Assembly: GCA_030673895.1 (NCBI GenBank)
Contig: JAUTCR010000058.1
Span: forward strand, 1-64,000
DNA: 64,000 nt
Reading direction: 5' to 3'
From: Verrucomicrobiota bacterium JB023
Lineage (GTDB): Bacteria > Verrucomicrobiota > Verrucomicrobiia > Verrucomicrobiales > Akkermansiaceae
Below the pieces are notes generated by a model. That model was not told the origin of the DNA and ran no database searches. It saw only the letters and a list, made by a program, of their open reading frames with translations. A program made the translations under genes and the position numbers. Shown piece after piece: positions 42 through 45,600 of this stretch. The number at the start of each line of letters is the position of its first letter. The first letter of the stretch is position 1.

Positions 42-1460
42 ATGCGATGCTTTCTGCTCACCCTTGTTGCGCTCTGCCAGCTCCAAGCAAAACAGCCCAA
101 CATCGTCATCATGCTGAGCGACGATCTCGGCTACGGCGAACTCCAACATCTCAATCCTGAGCGGGGTAAAATCCCCACACCCCACCTCGACGCCATCGCT
201 CGGAGTGGCATGACCTTCACCGATGCCCATAGCGGCTCCTCGGTCTGTACCCCAACCCGATACGGGCTCCTCACCGGTCGCTATGCTTGGCGAACACGAT
301 TGCAAAGGGGCGTTCTCACCGGGGGTGAATCGTTGATTGCTGAGGACCGAAAGACCTTGGCCGACCTCTTGAACGAACAAGGATACGACACCGCCATTAT
401 TGGCAAGTGGCACCTCGGCACCCTCTATGACGGCAAGCACCTCAAGGGCACGGCCCCCCTCGGAGCAACGGTCAGCCATGGTCCAATCGAACGAGGTGGC
501 TTCGACTTCTTCCGTGGCTTTCATCACGCCCGGCAAATGGATGTCTGGCTCGAAGACCAGACCGTCAAGGAACATATCGACCCCGTCGAGATGCTTCCTC
601 GACTCACCCAGGCAGCGGTCGACTACATCTCTAGTCGCAGGGAAGACAGCCCCCCCTTCTTTCTCTACCTACCTTGGAACTCCCCTCACAGTCCCGTCGT
701 TCCGTCGCCCGAGTGGCAGGGCAAGAGCGGCATCAACGAGCACGCCGACTTCGTGATGCAAACTGACCACAGCCACGGACAAGTCATCGCTGCGCTGAGA
801 AATCGGGGACTACTAGACAACACCTTGATTATCGTCACCTCCGACAATGGAACTTCGGCAAAAACTGCCAATAAAAAGGAACTCGAAAGCCGGGGACACT
901 TCCCGAGCGGTCCCTTCCGGGGAGCAAAATCCGATATTTGGGACGGCGGGCACCGCGTCCCCTTCCTCGCTTCATGGCCGGGCATTATTGAGGCCGGAAG
1001 TCAGAGCGACAGCCTGATTTGCCTCACCGATTGCTTTGCCACCGTAGCCGACATTCTTGACGTGCCTCTCTCTGACGCAACAGGAGAAGACAGCTTTAGC
1101 TTCTTCCCTCAACTGAAAGGAGACACCCCGAAAACTCCTCGGGAAAAAGTCGTGCATCACTCCATCGCGGGGCACTTCGCGATTCGGGATGAACGTTGGA
1201 AGCTGATCTTCTGCCCGGGATCCGGGGGATGGTCAGCGCCCAATGTTGCGTCGGCTATTAATAAGGGTGAGCCTCGCGAACAGCTCTACGACATGTCGGC
1301 AGACAAGGAAGAGAGCGCGAATCTTGCCAGCGAAAATCCCGCGATCGCTGCCGCGTTACGCAAAGAAATGGAGCGACTGATTGCCAACGGCCGCTCCACC
1401 CCCGGCCCCCCACAAAAGAACGACGTCCGGGTCGTTCTGGAAAAGTGGAAAAAGAATTAG
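42..1460 (+). CDS. Secreted sulfatase (arylsulfatase family, Cys-type)
   Basis: ORF 472 aa; N-terminal PNIVIMLSDDLGYGEL metal-site motif; SVCTPTRYGLLTGR formylglycine motif (C-x-P-x-R); HSPVVPSPEW and TSDNG motifs; short signal peptide. Confidence 0.95.
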   Translation: MRCFLLTLVALCQLQAKQPNIVIMLSDDLGYGELQHLNPERGKIPTPHLDAIARSGMTFTDAHSGSSVCTPTRYGLLTGRYAWRTRLQRGVLTGGESLIAEDRKTLADLLNEQGYDTAIIGKWHLGTLYDGKHLKGTAPLGATVSHGPIERGGFDFFRGFHHARQMDVWLEDQTVKEHIDPVEMLPRLTQAAVDYISSRREDSPPFFLYLPWNSPHSPVVPSPEWQGKSGINEHADFVMQTDHSHGQVIAALRNRGLLDNTLIIVTSDNGTSAKTANKKELESRGHFPSGPFRGAKSDIWDGGHRVPFLASWPGIIEAGSQSDSLICLTDCFATVADILDVPLSDATGEDSFSFFPQLKGDTPKTPREKVVHHSIAGHFAIRDERWKLIFCPGSGGWSAPNVASAINKGEPREQLYDMSADKEESANLASENPAIAAALRKEMERLIANGRSTPGPPQKNDVRVVLEKWKKN

Positions 1461-1659
1461 GCTTCAATGGTGCGAAATCAGGCGGCTCTTTGTGAGTCGT
1501 ACTTTTGGGAACGCGGCAGTGGAGCGACCGCACCCCTATCCACAACGCCAAGGGTTGAGCCACTCCTTTTGCAGCGCTCGCAGCGTATAAGGGAATAGCC
1601 ACGACTCTCCGAAACCTCTCCCTCGACTTCCCCACCCTTACCGTCCCCGGACAGCGCAC

Positions 1660-2745
1660 AGCGAGACGACCAACGAAAGCCGACCCAAAGCGGAACCCCT
1701 TTCCCGAATCCTTTTTCCCTTCCGCGCTCCCGACCCTCACCGTCCCCGGACTGCGTCAGCCTGCTGACGCTCAAAGAGCCTCTCAGCCTGCTGAGAGGCG
1801 TGGTGGCCAAACCGAAAATTCCCACCTATCCCTCCGCCGTCGTCGCCCCCTATCAGCGCTCAACTCAAGCCCTGTTATCCCCTCAAGTTGCGCAACCTCT
1901 CCGTGGACTGACACCTCGCACCTCCGCAAAGAGCCCTCCCCGACCTCGGGCCAGCAGGCTGGCCCTGACACATGCGGCAGCAGGCTGCCGCAGTCCAGGA
2001 CTCCGCACAACGAGACCACCTACGAAAACCGACCCAAAGCGGAATCCCTTTCCCGAACCCCTTTTCCCTTCCGCGCTCCCCACCCTCACCGTCCCCGGAC
2101 TGCGTCAGCCTGCTGACGCTTAAAGAGCCTCTCAGCCTGCTGAGAGGCGTGGTGGCCAAACCGAAAAATTCCCACCTATCCCTCACCCGTCGTCGCCCCC
2201 TATCAGCGCTCAACTCAAGCCCTGATATCCCCTCAAGTTGTGCAACCTCTCCGAGGACGGACACCTCGCACCTCCGCAAAGAGCGCGCCCTCGACCTCGG
2301 GCCAGCAGGCTGGCCCTGACAAAAGCGGCAGCAGGCTGCCGCAGTCCAGGACCCTACCCAGAAACACCACCAACGAAAATTGACCCAAAGCGGAACCCTT
2401 TCCCGAATCCCTTTTCCCTTCCGCGCTCCCGACCCTTACCGTCCCCGGACTGCGTCAGCCTGCTGACGCTTAAAGAGCCTCTCAGCCTGCTGAGAGGCCT
2501 GGCGGCTAAACCAAGAGACTTCCTTCTCTTCCCCTCACCCGTCGTCGCCCCCTACCTGCGCTCAACTCAAGCCCTGCTATCCCCTCAAGTTGTGCAACCT
2601 CTCCGAGAACTGATACCTCGCACCCCCGCAAAGAGCCCGCCCCCGACCTCGGGCCAGCAGGCTGGCCCTGACAAAAGCGGCAGCAGGCTGCCGCAGTCCA
2701 GGACTCCTCACAGCGAGACCACCTACGAAAACCGACCCAAAGTGG
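1660..2745. repeat. Three-unit ~350-bp direct repeat array containing 12 palindromes with a shared CAGCAGGCTG/CAGCCTGCTG core
   Basis: GCGTCAGCCTGCTGACGC at 1753, 2102, 2452; CCTCTCAGCCTGCTGAGAGG at 1779, 2128, 2478; GGGCCAGCAGGCTGGCCC at 1948, 2299, 2651; GCGGCAGCAGGCTGCCGC at 1974, 2325, 2677; intervening sequence also repeated. Confidence 0.95.
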
Positions 2746-3145
2746 AAAGCTCGATAACGATCCCGAGCACCCAGCTCTACGAATCACCTTTCGCTCGCAA
2801 GAGCCTCACTCAGCGGCAGGAACCACCTGCCTTCAAGCGATAGCAGGCTGCCATCTCCATGACTGGCCTAAGAAAGACACCCAGAAAACGCTTGGTGAAG
2901 ATTGCAGCTTGTCGCCTTCTCCGCGAATTTTGCACGATCGCCGAACCGATTGGAATGCCGGCTATTGTCCGACTAAACCACTCCACTGTCGCTCTCACCA
3001 ATTGCCTGACACCTGATAGGACTTGGTTTTTCAACAGTTCCACACCGCCGATCCTGTCTTCGCTTCGAGTGAAATCCTAACAAGTGAGAGAATCCCGGGA
3101 TTGGCCTCCTCCTTGCGGGAAGAGGTCGAAAGCACCCAAATAATC

Positions 3146-4516
3146 ATGTCTGTAACCACCATCAACCCCGCAACCAACGAAAAGCTGGACACCTACGAGC
3201 CCCTGACCCGGGAGGAAGCCCTCGAGGCAGTTGCCAAAGCTCACGACGCCTTCCAGACTTGGAGAGAGACGACCTTCGACGAACGGCGGGAGATCCTGCT
3301 CAAAGCTGCAGAGCGCCTCCGCGCCGACACCGACCAGTTCGCCGAACTCATCACTGCTGAGATGGGCAAGAGAATTAGCGAGGCTCGAAGTGAGATTGAA
3401 TTCTGCGCCGAAATTATCGAATTCTACGCCAAGGGAGCCTCCGACTTCCTTGCCGACACGCCTTGGCAAGCCGATGGTGCCGACGCCTATGTGCAGTATG
3501 CTCCCATCGGGGTCCTGATGGGAGTGATGCCTTGGAACTTTCCCTTCTATCAGGTCATCCGATTCATTGCGCCCAACATCATGGCGGGCAATACCACGCT
3601 GGTGAAACACGCCAAAATTGTCGCAGGTTGTGCCGAGAAGATTGAGGAAATCTTCCGGGATGCCGGCCTCCCTGAGGGAGTTTTCACCAATCTCATTATT
3701 CCCAGCGAGTTTGTTGACACCATCATCTCCGACGAACGAGTGCAAGGTGCTTCCCTAACAGGCAGCGAGCGGGCTGGAGCAGCGGTGGCCGGCGCAGCGG
3801 GTAAGAACCTGAAGCGCTCCGTTCTCGAGCTGGGCGGCAATGACCCCTTCATTGTGCTTGAAGACGCCGACCTTGAGAAAACGGTGGCCATGGCGGTGAA
3901 AGGCCGGATGGTCAATACAGGGCAATCTTGCGTCGCGGCGAAGCGCTTCATCGTTGTCGAGGAGGTCGCCGATCAGTTCTTGGCTGCATTCAAGGAGCAG
4001 GTCTCCCAGCTCACCTTGGGTGATCCCATGGACGAGGAGACCGATATCGGACCTCTCTCCTCTGAAGACGCTGCCGAGCGATTGCAAAAACAAGTCGACG
4101 AAGCCATCAAGGCGGGAGCCTGCGCCATCGTGGGAGGAGACCGTCCGGATAAGGCTGGGGCTTGGTTCAATCCCACCATCCTCACGGGGGTCAAGCCGGG
4201 AGACCCAACCTTCGATCAAGAGCTCTTCGGTCCCGTTGCCACGGTGTATCGAGTCAAAGACGAACAGGAAGCCATTGAGTTGGCCAACCGCTCTTCCTAC
4301 GGCTTGGGGGGCTCCGTTTACACCAAGGATATTCCCCGCGCCAAAAGAGTGGCCGAGCAGATCGATACCGGAATGGTCTTCATCAATCAGCCGACCAACT
4401 CACAGGCAGACTTGCCCTTCGGAGGTACGAAAAACTCCGGCTACGGGCGGGAGCTTTCGTCGCTCGGAATTCTTGAGTTCGTCAATAAAAAGCTGATCCA
4501 CCACCAGGCAGCCTAA
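3146..4516 (+). CDS. gabD: NAD(P)-dependent succinate-semialdehyde dehydrogenase / aldehyde dehydrogenase family
   Basis: ALDH signatures VLELGGNDPFIVLEDADL and NTGQSCVAAKRFIV; start chosen at MSVTTINPATNEK, internal to the longer ORF. Confidence 0.85.
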   Translation: MSVTTINPATNEKLDTYEPLTREEALEAVAKAHDAFQTWRETTFDERREILLKAAERLRADTDQFAELITAEMGKRISEARSEIEFCAEIIEFYAKGASDFLADTPWQADGADAYVQYAPIGVLMGVMPWNFPFYQVIRFIAPNIMAGNTTLVKHAKIVAGCAEKIEEIFRDAGLPEGVFTNLIIPSEFVDTIISDERVQGASLTGSERAGAAVAGAAGKNLKRSVLELGGNDPFIVLEDADLEKTVAMAVKGRMVNTGQSCVAAKRFIVVEEVADQFLAAFKEQVSQLTLGDPMDEETDIGPLSSEDAAERLQKQVDEAIKAGACAIVGGDRPDKAGAWFNPTILTGVKPGDPTFDQELFGPVATVYRVKDEQEAIELANRSSYGLGGSVYTKDIPRAKRVAEQIDTGMVFINQPTNSQADLPFGGTKNSGYGRELSSLGILEFVNKKLIHHQAA

Positions 4517-4743
4517 ATGACCCGTCCCCTCGGGGGCCTTTGATTCGAACGAAGCTGCTCTTCCAACTAAGGTATTTCAGGGGGTGTCTCCGAAGTAGGT
4601 CGGTGGGCATCTGCTGATAAAAGAGAACCCTTCGCGCGGTAGTCCCCGCAATGGGGCTGCCCTTTTCTGCGCGAAGAGCAGAGGGAATGCCCCGTGCGAA
4701 ATCCACTCAAACCTAACTCCAAATTACTTCGCTTGAATAACTT

Positions 4744-44901: not shown

Positions 44902-45600
44902 TTAGATGGCCTTTTCCTTCTTCTTACCACGGAGTGCGAAGATCTCATCGCGACCGCGCAGTTGAGAAAGCGCTTTCAGAGTCGCCTTCACCACGTTCGC
45001 GTGATTATTCGATCCGAGCGACTTACCCAGGACATCCTTAATTCCGACGGCTTCACAAACTGCGCGAACACCCCCACCAGCAATAATACCGGTTCCGGGA
45101 GAAGCTGGCTTGAGAAGAACCTTTCCGCCTCCAAACTCAGCGTAGGTTTCATGAGGAATCGAGCCTTCGGCAAGCTGCATCTTCTTCAGATTCTTCTTCG
45201 CGCTTTCGCTGGCTTTCTTGATGCACTCGGCAACCTCATTGGCCTTACCGAAGCCGAAACCAACTTGTCCTTGCTGGTCACCAGAGACAACCAAAGCGGA
45301 GAAACTGAAACGACGTCCACCCTTGACCACCTTGGCACAACGGTTGATGAAAACGACTTTCTCGGAAAGCTGGTCCCCGTCATCCTCATCATGACGTCGG
45401 CCACGGTCACCGCCACGTCCGCGGTCACCACCACGGCCCCGGTCGCCTCCGCGTCCACGGTCACCGCCACCTCCACGGTTGCGGTCACCGCGTCCTCCGT
45501 CGCGGCGATCGCCACTTCTTGGGGGTGTCGCCTCGTTAGGCTTCTGCTCTCCGGAGGCTGCCTTTGCGCCTTCGGTCTTGGTCTCGCTATCTGCTACCAT
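44902..45600 (-). CDS. rpsE: 30S ribosomal protein S5 with RG-rich N-terminal extension
   Basis: [45 protein letters not shown]-terminal (GGDRGR)n. Confidence 0.96.

Follow-up and report, generated by a model that had tools for sequence, protein, structure and literature searches.

The 1.7-kb gap that separates a sulfatase-like gene from an aldehyde dehydrogenase-like one in Verrucomicrobiota bacterium JB023 holds twelve perfect palindromes, all built on the core CAGCAGGCTG with stems of 7-9 bp and a loop of 4 nt (Table 1), raising the question of what kind of repeat they form and how it came to be there. An earlier note had reported these palindromes at 1753-2694 of the window (the whole 64,000-nucleotide stretch analysed), and all of them are present. 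The exact core occurs 12 times in the 64-kb window, each time inside the array, against 0.16 copies expected and a maximum of 2 in 100 shuffles. TRF divides the array into 3.1 copies of 350 bp with 90% matches, and direct repeats D1 and D2 give a period of 349-352 bp. Core to core, the two palindromes of a pair are 26 or 27 bp apart; the constant start-to-start spacing of 26 bp claimed for the pairs holds in six of six by the definition used at the time (GCGTCAG to CCTCTCAG, GGGCCAG to GCGGCAG). Just beyond the array lies a possible relic with the core TAGCAGGCTG at 2841-2850, which the covariance model R1 does not recover. Rfam gave no match in the window. Elsewhere in the window, a short tandem repeat of 18 or 24 bp (CCACGGTCACCGCCACGT) occupies 45398-45499.

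Table 1. Features of the palindrome array and its flanks, in window positions
Feature	Positions	Strand	Evidence
Upstream flanking gene, 472-aa ORF, sulfatase-like (named from sequence)	42-1460	+	ORF
Tandem array, three ~350-bp units, each an inverted element pair plus linker	1657-2747		TRF, direct repeats D1/D2
Perfect palindromes 1-6	1753-1770, 1778-1799, 1948-1965, 1973-1992, 2102-2119, 2127-2148		
Perfect palindromes 7-12	2299-2316, 2325-2342, 2452-2469, 2477-2498, 2651-2668, 2677-2694		
Unit 1 element A: GGACT foot 1748-1752, hairpin 2 1753-1770, hairpin 1 1778-1799	1748-1799	+	R1, 72.3 bits
Unit 1 element B: hairpin 1 1948-1965, hairpin 2 1974-1991, AGTCC (foot complement) 1992-1996	1948-1996	-	R1, 70.2 bits
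Unit 2 element A: foot 2097-2101, hairpin 2 2102-2119, hairpin 1 2127-2148	2097-2148	+	R1, 72.7 bits
Unit 2 element B: hairpin 1 2299-2316, hairpin 2 2325-2342, AGTCC 2343-2347	2299-2347	-	R1, 76 bits
Unit 3 element A: foot 2447-2451, hairpin 2 2452-2469, hairpin 1 2477-2498	2447-2498	+	R1, 71.8 bits
Unit 3 element B: hairpin 1 2651-2668, hairpin 2 2677-2694, AGTCC 2695-2699	2651-2699	-	R1, 75.8 bits
Possible decayed hairpin-2 relic (AAGCGATAGCAGGCTGCC...)	2834-2862		One-mismatch core, repeat D3; uncertain
Downstream flanking gene, 456 aa, aldehyde dehydrogenase-like (named from sequence)	3146-4516	+	ORF, relatives

The palindromes had been sorted into four types recurring three times with a period of about 350 bp. 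The recurrence is confirmed but the separate types are not: the CCTG and CAGG loops are one core on opposite strands, and the four types are therefore two inverted copies of a single two-hairpin element. Read on its GGACT strand, this element consists of a 5'-GGACT foot, hairpin 2, a spacer usually of 7-9 nt and hairpin 1. Hairpin 2 is nearly invariant (GCGKCAG/CTGMCGC around the loop), while hairpin 1 keeps the CAG-CAGG-CTG neck and the loop of hairpin 2 but has outer arms that vary freely and still pair. Two such elements, inverted with their feet outward, make a unit, and the window holds three units in tandem. Two hairpins are also predicted by single-stranded DNA folding on either strand. 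Elsewhere in the genome, the left arm of hairpin 1 runs into the right arm of hairpin 2 in two hybrid elements (C52:16760, locus L097, and C20:7872, locus L075), and the copy at C4:1582-1627 has three consecutive cores; these are likely products of slippage between two cores.

The same element is found throughout the genome, as had been proposed for checking together with a covariance model and a search for a nearby transposase. The 4.03-Mb assembly contains 110 copies of the core (6 for a reversed-pattern control), and 43 core pairs are spaced 24-28 bp apart (0 for the control). Model R1 finds 48 elements with differing linkers, 39 of them within eight clusters. All eight clusters start with a minus-strand and end with a plus-strand element, so that their feet point outward, and the alternation of strands is broken only once, at the site that holds the transposase described below. 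Tandem units of other lengths are present on contigs C8, C15, C42, C69, C71 and C75. Most clusters lie between long ORFs and a few overlap ORFs of unclear status. Multi-copy short palindromic stem-loops at extragenic sites, arranged in inverted pairs and clusters, are what defines REP elements and their BIMEs, and the suggestion of a REP/BIME-type repeat is borne out. The foot is GGACT here and GGA[CG]T in related transposase clades; since the conserved tetranucleotide GTAG (GT[AG]G) is absent, the repeat is not placed in the GTAG superfamily. Nor are these elements CGTC-tagged REPs, which have a CGTC foot and no dedicated transposase.

The family extends well beyond this genome. Under the strict filters of the R1 scans, which may miss weak elements, it turns up patchily among the relatives (9 of 57) and in 38 of the 390 genomes scanned across the phylum; the scan found no elements in three genomes of the same genus. 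The exact hairpin-2 motif with an A[N]TCC flank was recovered from at least 114 stretches, most of them from Verrucomicrobiota or Planctomycetota, and hairpin 1 with an exact core lies upstream of that motif in 138 of 161 distinct elements. At a few loci, such as L177 and L207, the element is a lone hairpin flanked by a foot at either end. The same-genus genomes offered no empty site; because the genes flanking the array are not syntenic in the nearest genome, insertion at the window locus itself is not seen.

A candidate partner was found with a profile of many Y1 proteins: an HUH/Y1 transposase of about 195 aa, directly beside elements in 7 of the 80 loci listed, two of them from Planctomycetota. 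All seven proteins match NCBIfam NF047646 (REP-associated tyrosine transposase, or RAYT), the first member at 74.4 bits against a curated cut-off of 80. An HYH motif and Y140, which aligns with the catalytic tyrosine, are invariant among them. The profile A2, built from six of the seven and one further protein, matches E. coli TnpA-REP (PDB 4er8) with an E value of 2e-7, and 4er8 is also the best fold match (E 8e-6) of an AlphaFold model with a pLDDT of 64, followed by IS200/IS605 transposases. Together the motifs and the profile and fold matches to 4er8, the latter from a model with a pLDDT of only 64, place an HUH motif and a catalytic tyrosine on a Y1 fold.

Profile A2 has exactly one match in the JB023 genome (G000), a minus-strand gene at C69:13172-13744 that lies within an array of the elements. 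A single-copy transposase flanked by its repeats is the arrangement expected of a RAYT, or TnpA-REP, and the Y1 transposase proposed as a search target near copies of the repeat is thus located. The RAYT is close beside elements in G000, G015, G037, G050 and G054 and near elements in G367, and elements adjoin it in every genome with a high-scoring RAYT. The culturable Brevifollis gellanilyticus NBRC 108608 (locus L190) likewise has both a RAYT and elements. A strong RAYT (>280 bits) is encoded by 5 of 9 element-positive but 0 of 48 element-negative relatives (Fisher p 3e-5, relatedness ignored). Across the phylum the figures are 5 of 38 and 0 of 352 (Fisher p 7e-6, again ignoring relatedness), and both sets of counts are partly circular because A2 was built from element-adjacent RAYTs, G015 and G050 contributing; G000, G037, G054 and G367 are independent of the profile members. 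The other four element-positive relatives (G009, G038, G044 and G049) have no strong intact partner. In G009, where 22 elements occur, the partner survives only as a C-terminal RAYT remnant (an 83-aa frame) 271 bp from an element, at G009:C10:91639-91752.

In a tree of 24 RAYTs, the 12 found beside the GGACT two-hairpin repeat form one clade with 100/100 support. Most of the 12 related RAYTs outside that clade are beside inverted hairpins with other cores, many of which have stems preceded by the foot TTTGGA[GC]T and followed by TTT. At two of these other-core loci (L399 and L400) there are two hairpins with one loop in common, and the two-hairpin build therefore recurs. The flanks of L348-L355 and L399-L401 each have a related RAYT beside its own hairpin type, pointing to a wider set of REP-like families.

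Given the repeats, their clusters, the adjacency of the RAYT and the match between RAYT clade and repeat, it is very probable that the three units of the window array are BIME/REPIN-like and belong to a REP family whose own RAYT is the one on C69, and that this enzyme copies the family in trans, the mobilisation being the inferred part of that reading. A two-hairpin element in inverted pairs, its GGACT foot and a specific partner transposase all go beyond the earlier note.

The pairing of the palindromes bears on whether they are kept as DNA or as RNA. Among 23 distinct elements of the genome, 49 changes are two-sided and none one-sided, in agreement with the earlier claim that core and geometry are kept while the outer arms differ and still pair. 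Pair cells in these 23 elements are standard in 93%, compared with 76.7% after shuffling and 22-39% when partners are slid. Among the genome_contigs loci, 65 unique arm pairs have a Watson-Crick fraction of 0.69, compared with 0.34 shuffled (shuffled maximum 0.42), and Watson-Crick bases form the two pairs adjoining the core in 135 and 130, respectively, of the 138 distinct elements whose hairpin-1 core is exact. Those 138 elements have 41 different 4-nt hairpin-1 arms, and pairing at the outer positions becomes less regular with distance from the core. Hairpins retained for an action in RNA, as a terminator, an attenuator or an mRNA-stabilising 3' element between the flanking genes, could account for such conservation: the array sits downstream of a gene, hairpins are predicted on both strands (with DNA parameters), and on the minus strand a TTTT run after hairpin 2 gives a terminator-like score. 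However, the count of terminators is not above that of shuffles (4 versus 2.6 +/- 1.6), the 23 elements change from one Watson-Crick pair to another and lack G-U intermediates, and at the two firmly paired outer positions of the genome_contigs loci G-T occurs no more often than A-C. That G-U pairs are almost lacking suggests that the palindromes are needed as DNA rather than as an RNA fold. As an RNA function would also leave the symmetrical inverted pairs and the RAYT linkage unexplained, we regard it as improbable, while a secondary RNA effect of the arrays, like that of known REPs, is possible.

Slightly less probable still is mobilisation by a different, multi-copy Y1 transposase of about 398 aa, first noticed on contig C39, where an element lies about 120 bp downstream of its gene. 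Elements are downstream of this gene at both C39 and C69:54070, the same flank is present at a contig end of C17, and near-identical partial copies of the gene stop at contig ends. On the other hand, C39-type genes are present in 48 of 57 relatives irrespective of elements, and G009 with its 22 elements has no C39-type match. The motifs of the protein (NHFH, WE and YIDLNP) fit TnpA-Y1 subclass 2.1, a class reported without REPs (PMC6006769). The C39 protein was the first candidate partner found near an element and was dropped when co-occurrence failed; a tblastn search of the 80 element loci with the C39 and C43 proteins gave no match. It is more likely that an element inserted beside one C39-type copy and was then carried along. 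The C39 gene itself (locus L068) is at 3471-4667 on the minus strand, with further copies on C34, C65, C30, C56 and C18 and at C69:54070, and these near-identical copies break the assembly. Hairpins of the AAAGGACACACCTTTTAT type are found upstream of three C39-type copies, and G049 has 71 C39-type matches, many with near-equal scores, suggesting a recent expansion. An element subtype with CCCCG in hairpin 1 and GCTG in hairpin 2 is found at C39:3303, C69:53956, C17:131715 and C4:1582; it has a flank in common downstream of the C39-type gene, as if it were a passenger. The C4 copy adjoins microsatellites of GTTGGCA and TGGATGC and seems to follow a tRNA gene.

Least probable, to the point of being nearly negligible, is a plain recent triplication of one 350-bp segment belonging to no functional family: the three tandem units are about 90% identical, but tandem duplication accounts for the local copy number only, and the refutation named in the earlier note, one local triplication, fails given 48 elements with different linkers across the genome and the motif in many related and unrelated genomes.

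For a REP family served by the C69 RAYT, each REP would be a single-stranded DNA substrate of two hairpins. E. coli TnpA-REP cleaves single-stranded REP and requires the GTAG foot (PMC8266576). By analogy with that enzyme, the C69 RAYT most likely binds the folded single strand, reading the foot as a guide, and its HUH/tyrosine centre would nick and rejoin the element strand. Inverted pairs would thereby be copied in trans to new intergenic sites. The window array, which has no transposase of its own, would then have grown to three units by later tandem duplication, and the hybrid and triple-core copies support slippage from core to core.

Under this scenario, the family would be an independent case for co-evolution of RAYT and repeat, with a clear transposase clade, a matching repeat and a different foot, and it would account for the recurrence of the repeat in many Verrucomicrobiota and Planctomycetota genomes. 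Co-evolution and recognition of RAYTs and their repeats have been studied in a few Proteobacteria with GTAG feet. Sister clades keep a similar foot with other cores. More tentatively, and with less than even confidence, these elements may form a separate PVC branch of REP/RAYT systems, tagged by GGA[CG]T, with a bipartite two-hairpin substrate in which the foot and hairpin 2 are read by sequence while hairpin 1 is recognised through its neck and loop alone, so that its arms may drift as long as they pair. If so, one element might supply both hairpins for a transposase dimer. The natural variants of hairpin 1 separate the parts read by sequence from those where only pairing matters.

Among known systems, REP/BIME (REPIN) repeats with a TnpA-REP, such as the E. 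coli REPtron (PDB 4er8), are alike in having many intergenic hairpin copies, inverted pairs whose feet point outward, tandem clusters and a single-copy HUH/Y1 transposase flanked by repeats. They differ from the family described here, in which each element has two separate hairpins with one core, the foot is GGACT rather than GTAG, the stems are perfect with no bulge, and the arms of hairpin 1 are variable but paired. A literature search for the core, unfamiliar to the earlier note, turned up no relevant paper, and the core is absent from the text searched. In Di Nocera 2013 (PMC3733652), published REPs carry GTAG or CGTC tags and are palindromes with an unpaired tag at one end that form head-head dimers, much like the elements here, which have neither tag; that text also places tagged REPs in the PVC group, in Opitutus terrae. 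For the transposase, Quentin 2018 (PMC6006769) offers several partial likenesses: TnpA-Y1 subclass 2.8 has the NHYH motif and a proline-rich N-terminus, subclass 2.6 has YxHQN and WQ, with atypical flanking structures as also in class 3, and class 3 occurs in Planctomycetes. The feet given there are CnGA for class 3 and GT[AG]G for subclass 2.8. The RAYT motif set (NHYH, WQ and YVHQN[AP]) matches no single row of Table 1 of that paper in a comparison of motifs. Some of the TIRYTs of PMC3733652 have double palindromic flanking repeats, a likeness in description as their sequences are given only in a figure, and tyrosine transposases with flanking repeats are reported there for R. baltica. Systems of this kind are thus already known, and it is in its two-hairpin build and tag sequence that the present family differs from those described.
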